A stretch of DNA of 47,528 nt from a virus. The stretch lies in IMG/VR virus record IMGVR_UViG_3300009370_000048, positions 1-47,528 of that record, one strand, 5' to 3'. Both the position numbers and the translations under genes were made by a program. A model generated the notes under the pieces. That model did not search any database. It saw nothing but the letters and a program-made list of their open reading frames with translations, and had not been told where the DNA came from. Every line of letters starts with the position of its first letter. The stretch's first letter is position 1. Below, in pieces: positions 522-45,846 of this stretch.

Positions 522-755
522 ATGAAAATTGAAATTGATAGTAAAAAGTATAAAATAGAAAAAACACAAGATGATGGTGTTATTAGAATTGTAGCAATAC
601 CAAAGAAAAGGAATTGCAAATATTGTACAAAACAATTTGAAAGTATGAATCAGGGAAAATTGTATTGGAAAGATTCAAATGGATATCAGCGAAGCGATTG
701 GTTTTGTAAAGAACATTATAAAACAATTAGAGATTTATTAATAGAAAACAGATAA
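522..755 (+). CDS. Small zinc-ribbon-like protein, 77 aa
   Basis: This small protein has CxxC (NCKYC, about residues 32-35) followed by a C-x2-H pair near residues 61-64 (FCKEH), a plausible four-ligand zinc site. The N-terminal 30 residues look like beta strands. The start is set by the AAAGGAAAAACACAA leader. Function is unknown; such mini zinc ribbons are common among phage early proteins and may bind nucleic acid or a host protein. It sits between a terminator and the first structured RNA candidate. Confidence 0.7.
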   Translation: MKIEIDSKKYKIEKTQDDGVIRIVAIPKKRNCKYCTKQFESMNQGKLYWKDSNGYQRSDWFCKEHYKTIRDLLIENR

Positions 756-779
756 GATTTATGGTGGGCAAGTGTTTTC

Positions 780-805
780 CACTATTGTTGTGATAGTGTT
801 TTTTT
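780..805 (+). terminator. Possible intrinsic terminator nested in the RNA
   Basis: CACTAT (780-785) pairs with ATAGTG (793-798) around a 7-base loop and is followed by seven T (799-805). The stem is short and AT-rich, so it would be weak. It lies inside helix A of the structured RNA candidate, so the two structures may be alternatives or may stack. Confidence 0.45.
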
Positions 806-872
806 GTCCACCAATAATTGAAAAGGAAAAGGAAAAGGAAAAGAATTGTGGGAGCCAATAACTGGTCCAAGT

Positions 873-898
873 AAGAAGCATCTGTGAAGAAGCATCTG
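873..898 (+). repeat. 12-base direct repeat inside the RNA candidate
   Basis: AAGAAGCATCTG occurs at 873-884 and again at 887-898, a 14-base period, in the interior of helix B. No ORF explains it. Confidence 0.7.
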
Positions 899-950
899 AA
901 ATCAGGAATATGTGAGGCTCTCACAGAATTGAAAAGAAAAGGAGAAGTAA

Positions 951-1211
951 ATGAAGAAAACAGACAAAAATATAGAAGCGAGACAGCAGAAGCTAGAATG
1001 GAAATTAATCAATGTGGTTGAATTTTTTATTGATTGGAAGAAAGACTACAAGGGTACAAAAGAGGGCTGGGATTTAGCAGAAGAATTTATTAATTCGTGG
1101 AAGAAGAAAAGCGACACAGGTGGGTTTGCTAATTGGTTCAGAATAAAAAAACAAGATGTTATAGATTTTATTGAAAAGAAAGGAGAAGTAAATGAAGAAA
1201 ACAGCAAGTAA
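951..1211 (+). CDS. Hypothetical early protein, 86 aa
   Basis: A small, tryptophan-rich, highly charged helical protein without recognised motifs. The start follows AAGGAGAAGTAA, an excellent ribosome binding site. Its last codons overlap the start of the next gene by 20 bases, and that junction copies the initiation region of this gene almost exactly (928-963 against 1170-1204). Function unknown. Confidence 0.7.
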   Translation: MKKTDKNIEARQQKLEWKLINVVEFFIDWKKDYKGTKEGWDLAEEFINSWKKKSDTGGFANWFRIKKQDVIDFIEKKGEVNEENSK

Positions 1212-6480: not shown

Positions 6481-6616
6481 AGACATTGAAGAGTGTTTTA
6501 ATATTCTGAAAGATGTGAGACGAGTGTTCAGCAACTTGAGTGGAGACTCTGTTGTTGAGCGCTCTGAAATGCACAGAATATGTATGAGGATTGATAAACT
6601 AATTGAGGAAAAATAA
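6464..6616 (+). CDS. Small helical protein, 50 aa
   Basis: Begins MAKLIKDIEECFNIL after an AAGGAAC site within the previous gene. Two amphipathic helices, no motif. The stop abuts the next ATG. Confidence 0.5.
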   Translation: MAKLIKDIEECFNILKDVRRVFSNLSGDSVVERSEMHRICMRIDKLIEEK

Positions 6617-8336: not shown

Positions 8337-8964
8337 TGTAAATGATGTATTTGGAGATATAACTAAAAATCAAAGTTATTATAATCCAAAAGATAAAAAG
8401 AAAAAGAAAGAGTACACTCCTTACACAAAAGGAGAGTATCTTTGCCATATCATTGATGCAGAATCAAAAGTAGTTGATGTTGGTAAAGGTAAACATAGAG
8501 CCGAGTTATTCACTTATACTGTAGAAGTAGCGGATGAAAACAGGACTCAAGACTTCCAATATTCTGATATTAACGGAGATAGAATAAGAACAAAAGGAGA
8601 CGTTTATATAGGATATAAGTTCAAAGGAAAACTTTGGAGGTTTTTAGAGCCAGGAGAAAAGGATACTTTTTCTTCAAACTCTTCTGGAAATGCTAATTAT
8701 ATGCGTTTCTGTGAGACTATAGGCATAGAAAAAGTGATGGAGAAAAAGGAAATAAACGGAGAGGTTATAGAAGTTCAACTACTCCCTTCATTATCTCCAA
8801 GTGAGATGCTTGGTAAGGCTGTTGTTGCGTTTGTTGATTTAGGCAGACCTTGGACAGACAAAGAAGGCAAAAGAAGACAATTCTGGGATTGTAAATTCTG
8901 TAAGCCTTGGAAAGATGGAAAAGATAAAAAGGTAGGAGAAGGAAATGACTCTATTCCGTTCTAA
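8329..8964 (+). CDS. SSB-like protein with DSIPF C-terminal tip
   Basis: A 211-residue protein, probably the phage single-strand DNA-binding protein. The central part is beta-rich and the protein ends NDSIPF, closely matching the E. coli SSB tip DDDIPF, which docks SSB-interacting partners; the preceding linker is basic and glycine-containing. Position between the annealing protein and replication genes supports this. It overlaps the upstream gene by 8 bases and the downstream HTH ORF by 20. No OB-fold motif can be proven by eye; a DUF669-like relative is possible. Confidence 0.7.
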   Translation: MADVNDVFGDITKNQSYYNPKDKKKKKEYTPYTKGEYLCHIIDAESKVVDVGKGKHRAELFTYTVEVADENRTQDFQYSDINGDRIRTKGDVYIGYKFKGKLWRFLEPGEKDTFSSNSSGNANYMRFCETIGIEKVMEKKEINGEVIEVQLLPSLSPSEMLGKAVVAFVDLGRPWTDKEGKRRQFWDCKFCKPWKDGKDKKVGEGNDSIPF

Positions 8965-9091
8965 ATCAAAAGTAGGAAAGGGCAAGAGGCTCTTAATAAA
9001 TGTTCTGTATAAACTTGGTGTTAAACCAAATAAATTAGTTTCTTTGATGGGAGTATCAAGAGCGACTATATACAGACATATTTCTAGGTAA
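8945..9091 (+). CDS. Tiny helix-turn-helix protein, 48 aa
   Basis: Contains KPNKLVSLMGVSRATIYRHI (residues 27-46), a good helix-turn-helix of the resolvase-tail type, and a very basic N-terminus. It starts within the SSB-tip codons. Probably a DNA-binding regulator; a resolvase catalytic domain is absent. Its 3' end contains a promoter-like sequence facing the structured RNA. A GGAGAAGGAA site precedes the ATG. Confidence 0.6.
   Translation: MTLFRSKSKVGKGKRLLINVLYKLGVKPNKLVSLMGVSRATIYRHISR
9044..9072 (+). promoter_or_regulatory. Candidate promoter for the second RNA
   Basis: TTGATG (9044-9049), 17-base spacer, TATATA (9067-9072). The predicted start near 9079 falls about 20 bases before the first helix of the RNA. 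It lies inside coding sequence, so codon choice could also explain it. Confidence 0.35.
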
Positions 9092-9098
9092 AAACAAT

Positions 9099-9330
9099 GG
9101 AGGGCAGTATTTCTTCACATCGCAACACAACTATACTGTCCTCCCACTCCCAAAGATTTTTGATATTTTGAGAACCAACACTTGCCAATCGCATGAAACA
9201 GGGCGTTCAACGAACCGTGGTTGAGGTTCTCAATATTTAGGGTAAACACACGACAGCGGTGTTCAGCTGTATAAATCGTTGGTGGTTTAGAAATCTTGAT
9301 GCACAAGGTTAATCTCTAGTTTACCCTATA
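9099..9330 (+). ncRNA. Structured RNA candidate, copy 2, with cloverleaf-like domain
   Basis: A 265-base gap, visibly richer in G+C than its flanks. Helix A: 9099-9110 with 9133-9144 (12 bp, one G-T). Helix B: 9168-9176 with 9225-9233 (9 bp), enclosing hairpin TCAAC/GTTGA (9207-9211, 9220-9224). A third domain is closed by TAGGGTAAAC (9238-9247) with GTTTACCCTA (9319-9328) and holds three hairpins: 9253-9257/9266-9270, 9272-9277/9284-9289 and 9292-9298/9304-9310. Helices A and B match copy 1 with compensatory pairs. Loop sizes (8, 6, 5) and a 10-bp closing stem do not fit a tRNA. Function unknown. Confidence 0.7.
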
Positions 9331-9356
9331 ATTTTAATAATAAAAAGGAGAAGTAA

Positions 9357-9638
9357 ATGGGTAGAGCAATAGATATGGAAAAAGATATTGATATGCTAAA
9401 AATGAAAGTTGAAAAGCTTGAAAATACTGTAAGAGGAATGACACATACAATAGATGAAATAGATGAAAAGGCATCGAAGACTAAAAAGGTAGATTTGGTT
9501 GATGATGTAAAAACAGAGGAGGAAGATGTCAAAAAAGAAGCCGACAATAAGACAAGTAGCAACAGCGGTAAACGAAGCAATGCAAAGAACAGAAATTCTA
9601 AAGGAAAGACTGATTCAGATGGAGATAGTTCTAAGTAG
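9357..9638 (+). CDS. Coiled-coil protein, 93 aa
   Basis: Residues 8-45 form heptad-like repeats (DIDMLKMKVEKLENTVRGM); the C-terminal half is low-complexity Lys/Ser/Asp. AAAGGAGAAG precedes the ATG. The disordered tail overlaps the next gene by 113 bases, so that part may be constrained by the other frame. Function unknown. Confidence 0.6.
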   Translation: MGRAIDMEKDIDMLKMKVEKLENTVRGMTHTIDEIDEKASKTKKVDLVDDVKTEEEDVKKEADNKTSSNSGKRSNAKNRNSKGKTDSDGDSSK

Positions 9639-9747
9639 CTATATAGAATTTAAGAAAGATGACAAAAAACTTGGAAAATTCATTGAGAAGAAAGCTACTG
9701 AGTCTACTAAAGACAGAGATTCAGAGAGTGTATCTGACAACGGATGA
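9526..9747 (+). CDS. Small helical protein, 73 aa
   Basis: Begins MSKKKPTIRQVATAVNEAMQ after GAGGAGGAAG, one of the best ribosome binding sites in the window. A helical core is followed by a charged tail. It overlaps the upstream gene heavily in another frame. Function unknown. Confidence 0.6.
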   Translation: MSKKKPTIRQVATAVNEAMQRTEILKERLIQMEIVLSSYIEFKKDDKKLGKFIEKKATESTKDRDSESVSDNG

Positions 9748-13231: not shown

Positions 13232-13705
13232 GTGATAAAATTAACAGATATTTATAACAAATTTGAAGGTAACCTATACATAGAAAAGGGGGGTAGATGG
13301 ATGCCAATAACTGAAGGATATTGCAAAGAGTTTGACCTCGATTTAAAATTCGGGAAGATGGGAGAAAAGTTTACTGAAGAAGTATTTGAAGGTAAGTCTC
13401 TTGTAGAAACAAAAACAGAAAGAGATATATGGAAATCAACAGGAAATTTAGCATTTGAAATAAGATATAAAGGACAGCCATCAGGTGTGTCAACAACAGG
13501 CTCACATATATGGATTCACTTATTGGCTTATAATAACGAGATTTTAGGGGGATTTATTTTTAAAGTACCCAAGTTAAAGCAAATGTTAAAAGAGGCCGTA
13601 AGGGGCAAAAGAGCTAAAATGGTGATGGGTGGCGATGATAATATGAGTCAAATAATACTTATGCCGATGAATGATTTAAAGGAATTTTATAGTTCTGTTA
13701 TTTGA
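13232..13705 (+). CDS. PD-(D/E)XK nuclease-like protein, 157 aa
   Basis: Residues 40-72 read FGKMGEKF ... VETKTERDIWKSTGN: Glu45, then a strand bearing E-x-K (Glu59/Lys61), then W-x-STGN, followed by E-IRYKGQPSGVSTTGS. This is the arrangement of small phage PD-(D/E)XK endonucleases, some of which resolve junctions. The canonical Asp before E-x-K is not obvious. Starts at GTG straight after the previous stop. It ends the rightward operon and its last 8 bases overlap the convergent virion gene. Confidence 0.65.
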   Translation: MIKLTDIYNKFEGNLYIEKGGRWMPITEGYCKEFDLDLKFGKMGEKFTEEVFEGKSLVETKTERDIWKSTGNLAFEIRYKGQPSGVSTTGSHIWIHLLAYNNEILGGFIFKVPKLKQMLKEAVRGKRAKMVMGGDDNMSQIILMPMNDLKEFYSSVI

Positions 13706-16700
13706 TTTTAAAGAACTCTGGCAGAAATTTAAAATCTTTATGAATTTTGATTCCAAAACTATTAAGGTCTTTCTCAAGATTGTTTTCTTTTAGATATTCA
13801 ACAATACTTTTTTCTAATAGTTCTATTCTTTCTGCATATAAATCTTGAAGTTTAGGAACAAGTAAATAAGAAGGTCTTTCTTTGGGTGGTAGATGCATAC
13901 TATTTCTATCTAAATACTCTTTGAATCTTAAAGCTTTTTTAAGTTGTGTTTTTTTACCTTTTTTATCTTTAGCGGTTATCAGCATTTTGCTTTTATTCAT
14001 GTTTGTCAACATTGTTTGATGTTGTTTAACAGCCTCTTTCATTGAATTTGTAGCAGATTCTTCAGGATTATTTCCACGTGTAATAATTCCACTTTCTGTT
14101 ATTCCTTTATAATGATAGTTGTTTGCTCTTATAAACATTGTCATCATATACCATTTCCCTAAAGAATTTCCAAATAAATCCTCATCATATCCAGAATTAA
14201 ATAAATCCCTAAAAGCTCTGTTTGATGGACTTTGAGAAAATGTTATTTCAGTGCTATTTTCTTCTACAATTTCATCTGCATCTTCAATCTCTTTCATCAT
14301 ATTTTTGTATTCATTGTTAAGTTTAGCTGTGAGGTAAGCATAAGAATCTTTTGAAACTAAACCCTTTTCTCGTAATTTATTTATACCATTAAATAAGCCA
14401 GTAGCACCTGTCATTAAATCTTCAATAGTTTGAGACGTATATTTTTCTCCTTGTGCCCAAGATAATAAAGTATTACCAGTCAATGCTACAGTTGAAAGAA
14501 CAGATGGATAAATTGAATTTCCTAATCCTTCAAAGAAATTGCCTTCATATAAATTTGTATTGAAAAATTCCGATGCTAATCCAAGAAATTCACCTTTCCA
14601 TAATAAGGTTTGTAAGTATTTCCAAAATGATGAATTTTTATCAGGCATAGGTGTTCCTAATACTTTATCATAAAATTGTAATAACACCTCACCAGAAACC
14701 ATTGTTCCAAGTCCAAATGCGATTAATCTAAATGGGCTTCCATTTTTTAATGCTAATTTTCCGTTTTTATAGGTGTTCACTGAAGCTGCATAAGCCATTC
14801 TTTTATAAAGTAATGCTGATTGAGCTAATGGTTTAGATGCCCAGTCTGGCATGAATATATCAATTGCTGCACCTTGTGTATTTATATGGGCATATGTATT
14901 CATCTTCTGATATAAATTATCAATAGCTCTTTTGTTTATACCAGCTTCTTTTGCACTTAATGCTTTAGTTCCTTTCATTCCAACTTTTTTAAATAATTGT
15001 ATTTCAGCATCAGATAGCTTATAAAGTGTTTTGAGAGTTCTTACAGCATTTTGATAGCTTCTAGATGTCTCAGGCATACTAGCAAGCCTGTCTGCTAAAT
15101 GAACTTGTTGTCTTTTACTTGCCAATACAGAAACATATCTATTTAAGTTTTCACTTGGCTTCATTAAACCAGCTCTAAAGAAACCTTTATCAAGAACTTT
15201 GTCCATTTTTCCAAAAATACCACTAACATCAAAATGTTTCATTCCTATTTCTGTTGCTCCTGTTCCTCTAACGAAAGCTCTATTGTCTTTATGTATAGAA
15301 TCGAAAAGGCCTCCCCAAAAATATTTTGTTCTCCAAGCAAGCATAGATTGAGTACTTCCTATAAGAAAGTTTTTCAAACCAGATGTTGGAAACGATAATC
15401 TTAATTTTGCTAATGATGATGTCAGTTTTCTTGTAAACCTGATACCACCAGGATAATCTGTAGATTCCCTATTTATTTTTAAATGATTTTTAAGATGTCT
15501 ATCAACCCAGTCTCCTAAATGTTTATTTTTTCCTCTAAGCTCTGTGATTAATCTTTTTTCTCCAGTAATATTAAAACCTTTTATTTTTACAAATTCAGGA
15601 AAAAATTCAATATTTGCTAAAAATTGAGCTTGATTAATTGCATAATCTTTAGTTGTTGGGTCAAATCTTGTTTCATATACCTTAACTCTTTTTCCATCTA
15701 TTGTTAAAAACTCTGGAAGTTTTACATGTCTTTCTTTAAGAAAAGATGGAGAATATTTTCCAGGATTAAAGTCAAATAGTTCATAGAGTTCTGAATGAGC
15801 AATAGAACGTGCATCTTCTCTTAACTCTATTGCTTTATTTGCTAGTTTTTCTTTAGTTGGATTTTCTATTTTTCTTTCCTTGAACCACCTTTTTGCTAAC
15901 CTAAAAGAAACAGCATCGGTTTGGTCGTCTACCAATTTTTCAAAATGTTTTTCCGATGGTCTGTAATGTTCTTTGAACTCTCTTGTTAACCTTCTTTGAA
16001 CATACACATTGTTTTTCTCACTAATCCAATTAATGTTTTTATCATTCATAAATTTTTCAAATTCGGCTTCATTTAGTATCTCTCTTAATATACCTTTATC
16101 GCCAACAAGTTGGTCTTTGTAATATTTCATTAATTTTTTATGCTCTTTAACAAGCATTCCTTCTTTTGTATTTTTAGGAGTCCAAGTTTTGGTATCAAGA
16201 GCATTATTTATAAATTCTTTTTCAGCTGGTTTAAGCCATCCGTTATCTTTTCTTTCCATGTATCTTTCTTTATCGAAAAGGTACATCATGTCTCTTATTT
16301 TACTCCATTTTGGTCTTCCAAAAGCATTTCTCATATTTCCTTCAAATACTTTAAATTTACCAATATGTCCTAACATTGCAGGCACATGTGAGTTTAATTT
16401 ATCTGCTAATGTTGTTAGGCCAAGTCCTTCAATAACGTCAATTACTGGCATTCCATATTTCATTTTAGATAATTTTGTGAATTTTGCAGCAACATCTTGA
16501 TTCACAATACCTTCTGATATTTGCCTATCAATCCAAGATTCATTTTGCTTAACATCATCCATTGTATTTAATATATTAATAAAGTCTTTCATTTGCTCTG
16601 AACTTGCAGAAAAAATCTCTCCATCTTTAACATTTAAATTTTTCAATATCTGTTTTCTTTCTGCTTCTGTGATGTTTTTAACTAATCTAAGATTTTCTGA

Positions 16701-19700
16701 ATTTTTATATAGCTCAAATTTTTCATGTTTTGTAATAGCCATATTAATCATTCTTTTATCCATTGAATTTATTGTTGCAACAAACTGTCTCATTTCAGGA
16801 ACTTCAGTTTTATTTGTGAGCTTGAAGTTTTCTCCTAATTCAGCTATTTCTCCAATCCAGCGTATAATATCTTTTTGTTTTGATTCGGGAAGTTTGTTTT
16901 CTTTGAATAACTCTCTTACCATAGATTTTGTATATTTATAAGCAGAATCTTGAGTCATAGTATCGGGCATTATTTTATATTTTATTTGCCCTTTAGCAAA
17001 TTGAACACCTTCTGTTGAAAACCCTCTTTGTATTCTTTTTGCTAATACTCTTGCAATATCATTGAAATTACCTTTACCAAAAGCCACTTTGATTCTTGAA
17101 ACTAATTGTTTTACAAAATTTCCTACTTTAGTTACAAAACCTTTTGAAAATTCAATCCTTGATGCCTTGCCTCCAGCAATATCAGATAAAAATTCCTCAA
17201 CATCTCTTCCTTTATTCTTTCTTTTCCAGCTTCTATATTCTTTGGTATTTACTGCAAGTTTTTCTCCACGCTGAATTAACTTCATTAAGCTTTTATTATT
17301 TGATGCTTCTGCGAATTGTTTCAATCTGTGCATATTTTCATGATAAAAATCAGCAGGTTGCCATAATCCTTTTTGTAATTTTATTATTCCTTCAGAAAAT
17401 TCACCAAGAACTCCTTTTTCAAGACCTATTCTTTTAAGAGATTCTTCAGTCATATTATTTTTCTTCATAACTTTTTCAATGAATTTATCTCTCGCAGCTT
17501 TATCTCCTTTGGTTTTAAATATTACTTCCTCAGGGAGTCGTTCTGCTTGTTTTTTCTTTTTAATAACAGGAGTCCCCTCTGTTTCATATTGCTTAGTTGC
17601 AATCTCTGAAGTCCCCCTTCTGGCTGCACTTTCTTTGGTCTCACTATCTCCTTTAAATAATGCTCTAAATACTCTTCCATATTCTCTTCCTTTGCCCATC
17701 GGAGAGGGAACACCATCAATTCTTAATTCTACTTTTGTTCCACTATTATCAGATAGCCATTTAGTAAATGCGTTAAATTCTTTTGCAGATTCAAATGGGA
17801 ATATTCTATCATCAGCTCCTTTGTTATTTTTCTTAGCATATTTAATTAACTTTCTTGCAAGAGATTTATCTACATATACACTTACTTTTTGAGTAGCACC
17901 TTTTTGTTTACTTCTAAAAATTCTAATTTCACCAGTATTGGGGTTTACATGCTTAACTTTCAAAAGAGTCATTTCAGTAGGTCTAACCTCTCCTAATAAA
18001 GCTGTTTTTATAGCGAGTTCTGCTCCTTCTTTTGATATTGTTTTAGCCTCTCCACCTTTTAGTATTCTTCCTTCAGGATATTTTTTTGTTTTTACTTTAC
18101 CACGTTTTTCAGCAATAAATTCAATAACATCGTCTGCTTTTGTTTTGACATAATCAATCCATTTATCAAAACCTTCTTTACCACCTTGTATTGTGATTTT
18201 TTCTCCAGTTCTTGTAGGGATTTTACCTATTTTAGCTACGATGTTATCACCGACAATTTTATCTAATTGTCCAAATTTAAATGATTCATTTAATGAATCT
18301 CTTATATAGTTTGCTTTCCTATAAAAATCTTTTATTTGTTTATCTGAGTATTTTTCTTGTAATTTAATATGAGTTAAATCATATACATCTGCTCCAACTC
18401 GCTCTTGTATATAATCCCTACCAAGATTTACAAGTTCATCAGCAGTAAGCTCGTGTAAATTTCTCTTATATTTTTTTTGAATATATTTAGCAAGTTTGTT
18501 TGCTTCTTTTGCGGCTCTTGTATGATATCTATTTTTAGGTAATCTATCCAATATATAGGTTAATATATTCTTATTTACATCGGATATTCCTGATAATTCT
18601 TTTGTGCCCTTAATATCTTTTTTTAGCAATTTTTCTTTTAATACTATGTTTTCAATTTCTGGATAAGTTCTCCTTCCAGTAATTTTACCAGCAATAGTAT
18701 CAGCTATTTTTTCTCCTTCTATTTCTGCAAGTTTTTCAGCTTTTTTATCTTTACTTTTCTGTTGATTAAATATATCTTCAATAACTTCTTTTCTATTTTT
18801 AATCTTGTTTGCTTTAGTGTATTCAAAGGCAACACCCAATTCTTTTGCTTTTTCGGCTATATATTCAGGAGTCCATGTTTTTGATGCAATAGCTTGTTCT
18901 CTTGTTTTTCCACCTATAATGGTTCTTTCTCTAACCACAGGTTCAATTGCATTAATCTTTGATTCAGCTCCAGTAGTCCCATCAGAGCCATAAATACCAC
19001 CATTCACATATTCGTTTACAGCTTCCCTTGCTTCAATTTGAATATCATGAATACTTTTTAAACTTGCTTTAAATTGGGTTAATTGAGAATCATTTGGATA
19101 TTCTCCATAATATTCCTTATATACTTCTTTTAATTTAGCGGTATTATTTTCAACTAATAAATCTGCAATAATTCCAGTAGTACCTAAACTATATATATTT
19201 GAAAGTTCTGCGTGTTTTGCAACTTCTTTATTTTGCCTACTTCCTAATACTTGTGCCTTTTTACGATATTCTGGGTCTCTAAGTTTTTGATTGATTTCTT
19301 GTATAAATTCAATATCTTTTTTAGCTTGAGATAAGCTTACTTCCAAGTTCTTTTCTTTTATATATAAATCTGTACTTAAATCACTTAAATCTTTTGGAAT
19401 TTCTTTTGTTGATTTTAGAAGGTCATTTTTGACATTTTCAATATGCGCTTTTGTACCTTTATTTAATTTTGAATCTACTTCAATTGCTGATTTTATAAAT
19501 TTGAATGCTTCTACTTTAGGTGATTCTGCAAATCCTCCAAATAGCCTCATTCCTCCAATCATTGTTGCATTTGATATAGCGTGTCCCCAAAACTCAGCAG
19601 GATTTTTAAATATAGATGGAGCACCCTCGTGTCCAAACACAGATGGAAGAGACGTAAATAATAAAGCTTCTTCTCCAACTCTTGTTACTGGATGGGATGC

Positions 19701-20669
19701 AATAATCGCAGCGTTCCTTGCAGCCGTTCCTTTTTTCATAAATGCATTAGCATATCCATATAGAGGGCCCATTATTCCATTTGTAATGCCACCTGTTAAT
19801 GCAAATAAAGGTAAAGAGTGAAGAAATTCATCTGATGCTACTTTCAAAGCATTGTTTATATTAACTTTTCCAACACCTATTTCTTCTCCGTTTTCATTTA
19901 ATTGAGTTTCAGACATTCTCTGATTTGCTACATCTCTTGTAAGAGCATGCGCTGCTACGAAGCCAGAACCACCTATACCAAGATTTACTGCATTTTCTAC
20001 TGCTTGTTTAGCAAATACTCCAATTTTAGGTGTTTTAGCTAAAAGAGAGCCGAATATTCCATTTTTTATATATGCATTTGCAGTAGAACTTCCAAATAAT
20101 GTAGTTCTAGATAAGGCTTGCGCTCCTTTACCAACAAACCCAGTTGCAGCCATAACAGATAAATCTAAAGGTTTAGCTAATGAAAATAGCATTTGAGCAC
20201 CTTGGGCAAAATATGATGGGTCATAGCCCTCTGGAAGCCCTGTATTTGGGTCGGTTTTATACTTTTCTTTTCCGTTTAAATATTTATAAGTTTGACCAGC
20301 CATAGAATTAATATATTGACTTTGGAAAAATTCTGGAGATATGCCCATAAATCCTTTTTCTGCAAAAGATTCTGGTATAAAATCAGCAGTAAGAAACCAA
20401 CTACTAATAGAATCTGGGTCGGTTTTTACATTATTTAAATTTTGAGTATCTTGATAATTTTTTTCTGGTGGAGAAATAGGTATTTTATTCGGATTATAGC
20501 TTCCAATATGTGTCTGTAATGCTTCATCATATGACGGAATGCCAAATTGAGGATATCTTTGTCTTACATCTCCAATAATATATTCATCTGTCTTGTCTTT
20601 ATATATTGAAGGAAGTTTTTCTCTCCAATAATCAGTAAATTCATTAATATTGGTTATTGATTGTCCCAT
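13698..20669 (-). CDS. Giant internal virion protein with recombinase-like and zincin-like domains, 2323 aa
   Basis: Last gene of the late operon. The N-terminus (about 1-360) has small-residue hydrophobic segments typical of ejection proteins. About 720-1030 resembles a tyrosine recombinase: Arg896 in GEVRPTEM, a Lys-bearing beta hairpin (SKQKGATQKVSVYV), Arg1002 in RVFR (His of HxxR replaced by Arg999) and Tyr1028 in ATKQYE. An HExxH site (His1110, Glu1111, His1114) with Glu1158/1159 downstream suggests a zincin peptidase-like domain. The C-terminal 1200 residues are long helical regions. This fits the polyvalent-protein concept: enzymes injected with DNA. No binding site precedes the ATG. 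Confidence 0.85.
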   Translation of the reverse strand: MGQSITNINEFTDYWREKLPSIYKDKTDEYIIGDVRQRYPQFGIPSYDEALQTHIGSYNPNKIPISPPEKNYQDTQNLNNVKTDPDSISSWFLTADFIPESFAEKGFMGISPEFFQSQYINSMAGQTYKYLNGKEKYKTDPNTGLPEGYDPSYFAQGAQMLFSLAKPLDLSVMAATGFVGKGAQALSRTTLFGSSTANAYIKNGIFGSLLAKTPKIGVFAKQAVENAVNLGIGGSGFVAAHALTRDVANQRMSETQLNENGEEIGVGKVNINNALKVASDEFLHSLPLFALTGGITNGIMGPLYGYANAFMKKGTAARNAAIIASHPVTRVGEEALLFTSLPSVFGHEGAPSIFKNPAEFWGHAISNATMIGGMRLFGGFAESPKVEAFKFIKSAIEVDSKLNKGTKAHIENVKNDLLKSTKEIPKDLSDLSTDLYIKEKNLEVSLSQAKKDIEFIQEINQKLRDPEYRKKAQVLGSRQNKEVAKHAELSNIYSLGTTGIIADLLVENNTAKLKEVYKEYYGEYPNDSQLTQFKASLKSIHDIQIEAREAVNEYVNGGIYGSDGTTGAESKINAIEPVVRERTIIGGKTREQAIASKTWTPEYIAEKAKELGVAFEYTKANKIKNRKEVIEDIFNQQKSKDKKAEKLAEIEGEKIADTIAGKITGRRTYPEIENIVLKEKLLKKDIKGTKELSGISDVNKNILTYILDRLPKNRYHTRAAKEANKLAKYIQKKYKRNLHELTADELVNLGRDYIQERVGADVYDLTHIKLQEKYSDKQIKDFYRKANYIRDSLNESFKFGQLDKIVGDNIVAKIGKIPTRTGEKITIQGGKEGFDKWIDYVKTKADDVIEFIAEKRGKVKTKKYPEGRILKGGEAKTISKEGAELAIKTALLGEVRPTEMTLLKVKHVNPNTGEIRIFRSKQKGATQKVSVYVDKSLARKLIKYAKKNNKGADDRIFPFESAKEFNAFTKWLSDNSGTKVELRIDGVPSPMGKGREYGRVFRALFKGDSETKESAARRGTSEIATKQYETEGTPVIKKKKQAERLPEEVIFKTKGDKAARDKFIEKVMKKNNMTEESLKRIGLEKGVLGEFSEGIIKLQKGLWQPADFYHENMHRLKQFAEASNNKSLMKLIQRGEKLAVNTKEYRSWKRKNKGRDVEEFLSDIAGGKASRIEFSKGFVTKVGNFVKQLVSRIKVAFGKGNFNDIARVLAKRIQRGFSTEGVQFAKGQIKYKIMPDTMTQDSAYKYTKSMVRELFKENKLPESKQKDIIRWIGEIAELGENFKLTNKTEVPEMRQFVATINSMDKRMINMAITKHEKFELYKNSENLRLVKNITEAERKQILKNLNVKDGEIFSASSEQMKDFINILNTMDDVKQNESWIDRQISEGIVNQDVAAKFTKLSKMKYGMPVIDVIEGLGLTTLADKLNSHVPAMLGHIGKFKVFEGNMRNAFGRPKWSKIRDMMYLFDKERYMERKDNGWLKPAEKEFINNALDTKTWTPKNTKEGMLVKEHKKLMKYYKDQLVGDKGILREILNEAEFEKFMNDKNINWISEKNNVYVQRRLTREFKEHYRPSEKHFEKLVDDQTDAVSFRLAKRWFKERKIENPTKEKLANKAIELREDARSIAHSELYELFDFNPGKYSPSFLKERHVKLPEFLTIDGKRVKVYETRFDPTTKDYAINQAQFLANIEFFPEFVKIKGFNITGEKRLITELRGKNKHLGDWVDRHLKNHLKINRESTDYPGGIRFTRKLTSSLAKLRLSFPTSGLKNFLIGSTQSMLAWRTKYFWGGLFDSIHKDNRAFVRGTGATEIGMKHFDVSGIFGKMDKVLDKGFFRAGLMKPSENLNRYVSVLASKRQQVHLADRLASMPETSRSYQNAVRTLKTLYKLSDAEIQLFKKVGMKGTKALSAKEAGINKRAIDNLYQKMNTYAHINTQGAAIDIFMPDWASKPLAQSALLYKRMAYAASVNTYKNGKLALKNGSPFRLIAFGLGTMVSGEVLLQFYDKVLGTPMPDKNSSFWKYLQTLLWKGEFLGLASEFFNTNLYEGNFFEGLGNSIYPSVLSTVALTGNTLLSWAQGEKYTSQTIEDLMTGATGLFNGINKLREKGLVSKDSYAYLTAKLNNEYKNMMKEIEDADEIVEENSTEITFSQSPSNRAFRDLFNSGYDEDLFGNSLGKWYMMTMFIRANNYHYKGITESGIITRGNNPEESATNSMKEAVKQHQTMLTNMNKSKMLITAKDKKGKKTQLKKALRFKEYLDRNSMHLPPKERPSYLLVPKLQDLYAERIELLEKSIVEYLKENNLEKDLNSFGIKIHKDFKFLPEFFKIK
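13704..13736. terminator. Weak hairpin at the convergent junction
   Basis: GATTTTAAA (13704-13712) pairs perfectly with TTTAAAATC (13728-13736) around 15 bases, just past the stop of the rightward operon and inside the end of the leftward one. It is AT-rich with no clean T-run, so it is only a candidate transcription boundary. Confidence 0.25.
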
Positions 20670-45477: not shown

Positions 45478-45706
45478 TATTTAGTCTCCAAAATTTCTTT
45501 AAATAACTAAAAGCTATATCTTTTTCTGAAGGTCTTAAATTTCCTTTAAGACTTATTAATTTAGGTATAGCTGTTAATCCACCATAACCAATTTTCATGC
45601 CACGCCGCTGTTTAGTATTATTCTGTGAAATTAATCCATCAATCATTGAATGTGCATTTTCTTTCTTAACTCCTAATATCATATCTAATATTTGCGCCGC
45701 TGTCAT
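45467..45706 (-). CDS. Hypothetical virion-region protein, 79 aa
   Basis: Carries AHSMIDGLISQNN (about residues 18-30) like its downstream neighbour, then a basic region (QRRGMKIGYGGLTAIPKL). Starts on the stop of the 46-aa gene (TAATG). No known family. Confidence 0.55.
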   Translation of the reverse strand: MTAAQILDMILGVKKENAHSMIDGLISQNNTKQRRGMKIGYGGLTAIPKLISLKGNLRPSEKDIAFSYLKKFWRLNNGK

Positions 45707-45846
45707 TATCTAGTCTCCAAAATAATATCAGCCTCAGAAAACGTGCTAATGTTGCTATACGAGTAACACATGGGGATGTAAAGGGGACTTGCGGACACAT
45801 TATCCGAAGCTGATAAATTGTTTAATATAATTTTATAATTTTTCAT
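45706..45846 (-). CDS. Hypothetical protein, 46 aa
   Basis: ATG directly after the stop of the zinc-ribbon gene opens MKNYKIILNNLSASDNVSAS and ends with TAATG onto the 79-aa gene, filling the gap exactly. Strand-rich with several Tyr/Ser; no motif. AGGAAAAGC lies upstream. Confidence 0.5.
   Translation of the reverse strand: MKNYKIILNNLSASDNVSASPLYIPMCYSYSNISTFSEADIILETR

Follow-up and report, generated by a model that had tools for sequence, protein, structure and literature searches.

Two intergenic regions of one phage genome raise the question whether both carry the same structured RNA and what such an RNA may do there. The window analyzed is a virus record of 47,528 bases from a tailed phage, with genes for a portal protein, a large terminase, a DnaB-type helicase, a Sak-type annealing protein, a Cas4-type exonuclease, and a methyltransferase. 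The original prediction described two helices, A and B, that recur in the same order at both places with compensatory base changes. Read directly from the sequence, all four helices and every listed change (765/810, 771/804, 768/807, 854/918, 851/921, and their counterparts) were present as claimed. In copy 1, helix A pairs GGTGGGCAA (763-771) with TTGTCCACC (804-812) and helix B pairs TGGGAGCC (849-856) with GGCTCTCA (916-923). The corresponding arms of copy 2 are GGAGGGCAG (9099-9107) with CTGTCCTCC (9136-9144) for helix A, and TGAGAACC (9169-9176) with GGTTCTCA (9225-9232) for helix B. All were longer than first noted, helix A spanning 762-772/803-813 and 9099-9110/9133-9144, and helix B 846-856/916-926 and 9168-9176/9225-9233. 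The four helices ranked within the 17 strongest perfect stems on the plus strand of the 47.5 kb. Folding z-scores were -3.15 for positions 756-950 and -3.53 for 9090-9356, and in each case 1 of 200 shuffled sequences folded as well. A third stem in the copy 2 region (9238-9247/9319-9328) had been overlooked.

Copy 1 follows a gene for a CxxC-type protein of 77 aa (522-755, plus strand; homologues in seven loci), whose stop lies 6 nt before the first hairpin, helix A. The Shine-Dalgarno sequence (GGAG, 941-944) and ATG (951) of the next gene (941-953, plus strand) are found 24 nt past the copy 1 helix. AAAAGG runs that resemble tandem Shine-Dalgarno sequences are repeated on both sides of copy 1 (824-845 and 927-944) and are also present at the same junction in relatives. 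Upstream of copy 2 lies a conserved mini-gene for a 48-aa helix-turn-helix (HTH) protein (8945-9091, plus strand), with a weak Pfam match to HTH_29 below the cut-off. The downstream gene (9357-9638, plus strand) encodes a protein of 93 aa starting MGRAIDMEKDID, which served as the query that fetched 73 related phage loci. This gene and 9526-9747 overlap in different frames, and both are conserved in more than 60 loci. By eye, an ORF resembling 2OG-Fe(II) oxygenases was seen directly upstream of the MGRAIDM gene in four relatives (L014, L023, L027, and L028), at the place where other relatives have folded elements. Elsewhere in the window, a very large gene on the minus strand (13698-20669) encodes a protein of 2323 aa; L003 has a 1942-aa ORF at the corresponding place.

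Positions 846-926 (plus strand) belong to an RNA family that is absent from Rfam and is here called the X frame. It consists of a covarying outer helix (P1), a nearly invariant internal loop, and an exchangeable interior. The loop is 9 by 8 nt, with the 5′ strand AAYAACUGG and the 3′ strand AUAUGUGA. In copy 1, P1 is formed by 846-856/916-926 and P2 by 866-868/905-907, the loop strands AATAACTGG (857-865) and ATATGTGA (908-915) match those of the family exactly, and the interior comprises 869-904. A covariance model (R1) of 22 X elements, with copy 1 among them and copy 2 left out, gave copy 1 a score of 61.7 bits.

At least 119 stretches of viral contigs contained a 17-base pattern, GAGCCAAYAACTGGTCC, and nearly all of the matches listed were closed by AGGAATATGTGAGGCTC. 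Among them we recognized about 107 X elements in 55 gene contexts, all in sequences of uncultured phages. In the genomes of 84,980 prokaryote species the same pattern gave 30 matches, no more than expected by chance, and all of these lacked the closing strand with the sole exception of L220, a phage-like contig in a Flavobacteriales metagenome-assembled genome. The loop occurred as AATAACTGGTC in 72 and as AACAACTGGTC in 15 of 88 X elements among the matches listed, a near-invariance that is partly by construction because the search required most loop letters. A variant of the frame, GAGUCAGUGACUGGUCAC...GGGAAUAUGUCAC...AAAACAGGUAGAGCUGAUGGCUCUC, was noted in L030, L049, L051, L016, and L074.

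Covariation in the outer helix was pronounced. Among the matches listed, the pair at -6/+6 was paired in 100% of 87 distinct elements, compared with 50% after shuffling (shuffled maximum 69%), and was realized as A-U in 47, U-A in 37, G-C in 2, and U-G in 1. In alignment A5, 92.3% of the cells were paired, a value reached by 0 of 500 shuffles. G-U combinations outnumbered A-C combinations by 37 to 3. Part of P1 is prescribed by the pattern itself, and for this reason a second test used loci that had been retrieved by protein. There, the otherwise fixed GCC/GGC was replaced by GAC/GUC in L282 and L285 and by GUC/GAC in L251, and all three keep the X loops despite these changes. The selected sense-strand RNA structure of the original prediction is thus upheld for helix B: the outcome named there as refuting, a lack of further covarying homologues, did not occur, as many such homologues were found. 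No named Rfam family matched. For 846-926, the covariation of the outer helix in the 87 elements listed refutes a chance hairpin or terminator.

At the copy 1 junction, three related phages (L024, L031, and L039) have an element whose loops are those of 846-926. Copy 1 is thus kept in place across related phages, and this speaks against a duplication that arose recently in this genome. Together with the strong divergence of copy 2, these orthologues suggest that the two copies belong to a widespread family and are each maintained on their own; the term duplicated, as used in the original prediction, is not supported. Copy 2 itself (9165-9236, plus strand; P1 9168-9176/9225-9233) is probably a diverged member of the X frame and a distant relative of copy 1. 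R1 ranked it second in the window (21.5 bits, E = 0.0015, R1 E-values being rough), with both loop strands aligned. The loop match is partial, with AACACUUG on the 5′ side and UGA on the 3′ side. When R1 was applied to 918 kb of related loci, the matches scoring 19-26 bits included recognizable X variants, with the remaining weaker matches starting from about 18 bits. Most phages that keep the HTH mini-gene carry a folded element at the copy 2 junction, of very different types.

The overlooked stem closes a second element, module C (9238-9328, plus strand), with an outer helix (9238-9247/9319-9328) and an inner hairpin (9253-9257/9266-9270). Across seven sequences, 99% of its cells were paired; eight pairs differed at both positions, and there was no one-sided change. 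Module C is a family separate from the X frame. A candidate third element on the minus strand (45726-45815) was rejected, as relatives show a conserved small ORF there. The ORF concerned (45706-45846, minus strand; 46 aa) contains a strong inverted repeat within its coding sequence (ASD...SEA region); relatives encode a comparable small protein at this junction, several of them with the pairing preserved. A further strong stem (6522-6564) was likewise set aside, being part of a small conserved ORF.

Helix A behaved differently from helix B. In copy 1 it is a real hairpin (762-813, plus strand; 762-772/803-813) with an inner hairpin at 780-786/792-798, separate from 846-926; no recognizable sequence relative of it was found among the related loci. 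In copy 2 it forms a purine/pyrimidine hairpin (9099-9144, plus strand; 9099-9110/9133-9144), and similar hairpins occur at this junction in related phages. The arms of the two copies are identical at 14 of 18 positions, a likeness that 1.5% of unrelated hairpin pairs, and 6% of purine-rich ones, also attain. Helix A as a family shared by both copies is therefore not supported, the likeness being not significant and the alignment ambiguous. Of the predicted recurrence of both helices, the part concerning helix B stands, since the two copies are probably homologous there (E = 0.0015), and the part concerning helix A is unproven. Nor do A and B appear to form a single RNA, as had been proposed: because the X frame occurs without helix A in most contexts and the homology of helix A is not significant, they are best treated as separate elements.

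The interiors of X elements proved to be modular. Among the matches listed, 75 of the 107 X elements contain an inner frame, Y (UGUAAG / CAAA), 18 contain Y together with a side hairpin, and 14, copy 1 included, have no recognized Y; the interior of copy 1 (869-904) reads AAGUAAG...AUCA instead of UGUAAG / CAAA. Y is thus common in X elements and not defining. About 20 core families were near-identical in different gene contexts (among the matches listed). One module, CCTGGAACAACAGCATACAAATAAGTCTGGCGGCGAAGG, serves as a side hairpin in L091, L093, and L124 and as the core in L039 and L153, and frames nested in frames were seen in L144, L146, and L186. A single type of junction, represented by eight contigs (L234-L240 and L258), carried eight different interiors. 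One interior (L113:1681-1820) has a tRNA-like T-arm, GGGTTCGAATCCC, closed by TGTAAGA/TCTTACA; a tRNA was not called there by ARAGORN. Tentatively, uncultured phages may carry a combinatorial RNA system in which constant frames (X and Y) between genes exchange dozens of nested RNA modules, a non-coding counterpart of gene cassettes that is perhaps driven by conflict with hosts or with other phages.

X elements have a characteristic position between genes. For the 107 elements among the matches listed, the nearest upstream gene was on the strand of the element in 91 of 97 cases and the nearest downstream gene in 92 of 102. The helix starts a median of 16 nt from the upstream stop and ends a median of 21 nt before the next start (matches listed), a spacing that, from general knowledge of ribosome footprints, would put it just outside those of the terminating and the initiating ribosome. 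The elements seen so far are mostly located in early or replication gene blocks read in one direction. Their flanking genes represent at least two lineages of phages: the lineage of the window and another that has DnaB-like primase-helicase, ThiF-like, ThiS-like, and DUF932 genes. In this second lineage, ThiF-like and ThiS-like (ubiquitin-like) genes adjoin X elements in L086, L087, L103, and L115. The junction between an SSB-like gene and a primase-helicase gene is empty in L288, L293, and L295 (gaps of 22, 20, and 26 nt) and is filled elsewhere by X or by quite different folded elements. At the SSB-like gene junction we also noted two unrelated folded families, TCTGTTGGGAATC...GTGTCGTGTCAGA (L241, L246, L252, L254, and L257) and GAGATAGGCTATATT...AATATAGCCTTCTC (L264, L268, L269, L271, and L272); the members searched had no match in Rfam.

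Searches for known relatives were negative throughout. Rfam (release 15) gave no match for the window, for the related loci (about 141 kb), or for the junction loci (85 kb), and none for 41 kb of X loci even at E ≤ 0.5. Permissive thresholds yielded no credible match for the window or the X loci, and no ribozyme class of Rfam matched either of them. BLASTN with both copies and a consensus X element against annotated phages and plasmids returned short chance matches only. The literature searched, in which preprints and subscription papers were scantly represented, held no description of such elements. The X frame with its exchangeable nested interiors is a new form of structured phage RNA that is missing from RNA annotation.

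Several known systems share individual features with it. Like X, families in Rfam include intergenic phage RNAs with covarying helices and conserved loops. In the early region of phage T7, RNase III sites are hairpins between early genes, located just upstream of ribosome-binding sites; in contrast, the minimal X element (L187) combines a long internal loop of fixed sequence with an upper helix of just about 4 bp. The attC sites of integrons have constant folded ends around exchangeable contents and flank gene cassettes, whereas the contents of X are non-coding RNA; no integrase was noticed. In the PeSL cassettes of T4-type phages, which shuffle genes, an early promoter is joined to a terminator-like stem-loop, according to the passages on them in PMC4503421 (Arbiol 2010, Comeau 2014, as cited there). 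As far as those passages go, PeSL and X are both phage intergenic stem-loops tied to modular shuffling, but PeSL shuffle genes while the shuffled cargo of X consists of RNA modules and no U-run is evident (PMC4503421). The short spacing around X also argues against a joined early promoter of the PeSL type. Mitochondrial repetitive hairpin elements are palindromic, intergenic, present or absent between relatives, and sometimes compound (PMC2800124). In those of sponges the stems are conserved and the loops differ, whereas in X the stems covary and the loops are fixed (PMC2800124). Neither these hairpins nor PeSL, in the passages concerned, are described as a fixed internal loop in a covarying frame (PMC4503421, PMC2800124).

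For the function of copies 1 (846-926) and 2 (9165-9236), we propose cis-acting RNA elements in the spacers of polycistronic phage mRNAs, a reading inferred from sequence and position to which we give a probability of about 0.45. Members of the X frame lie in sense direction and take up the spacer from a stop codon to the following Shine-Dalgarno sequence. The invariant loop may be a recognition or cleavage site for a factor (a protein, a ligand, or an RNase) that would set the processing or stability of the mRNA between cistrons. The outer helix could hold the insert folded and clear of the ribosome footprints upstream (termination) and downstream (initiation), so that both flanking genes would stay translatable. 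Recombination within the conserved strands that flank the interiors may exchange these between phages.

Against this reading, X is optional, as the empty junctions show, and the cassette-like exchange of interiors also fits a selfish element. The main rival is accordingly that of mobile RNA or hairpin cassettes that insert between stop and Shine-Dalgarno sequence and into each other's loops, and whose structure would be selected because it does little harm and favours their spread, not because the phage benefits. The occurrence of one junction in both empty and filled form speaks for such cassettes, as do the use of the same module in different structural positions, the nesting of modules, and the approximately 20 core families that are near-identical across gene contexts (among the matches listed). 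The near-invariance of the loops over many contexts and at least two lineages nevertheless suggests a selected recognition function, sense-only orientation is unexpected of a plain DNA element, and no transposase or intron machinery was noticed beside X elements. We regard selfish cassettes as possible though rather unlikely; the data do not separate them cleanly from a cis-acting mRNA element.

The diversity of the interiors within a constant frame suggests diversifying selection and could also point to a small RNA or decoy acting in trans, e.g. against host defence, that is cut from the mRNA and whose interior is the variable active part. This appears improbable, given that the median gap of 16 nt leaves little room for a promoter, that no U-run terminator follows, and that Rfam gave no match for the interiors even when searched at E ≤ 0.5. 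Slightly more doubtful still is a folded single-stranded DNA recombination site of the attC kind, whose conserved strands would be handles for a recombinase or a phage annealing protein. Interiors swapped between conserved flanks and the Sak-type annealing protein and Cas4-type exonuclease of the window phage are in line with it, and the bias for G-T over A-C is also expected if one DNA strand folds. As the gene blocks are read in one direction, the sense-strand bias does not fully distinguish a role as RNA from one played by a single DNA strand; the position tuned to stop codon and Shine-Dalgarno sequence, together with sense orientation, points to RNA. Chance hairpins or ordinary transcription terminators are very improbable and have their remaining scope in helix A at 762-813. 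Real terminators do exist nearby (443-478), but the covariation, the conserved loops, and the covariance-model matches contradict this explanation, and A/G-rich sequence without the U-run of an intrinsic terminator follows both helices.

Although phage genomes are compact, these phages maintain 40-190 nt of folded RNA where close relatives have almost nothing between the genes, and the X loop is conserved across at least two phage lineages while the interiors are swapped intact. If functional, the X frame would be a new class of phage mRNA element, pointing to an unknown host binding or processing factor; if it is selfish instead, phage genomes would harbour a parasite with an RNA structure.
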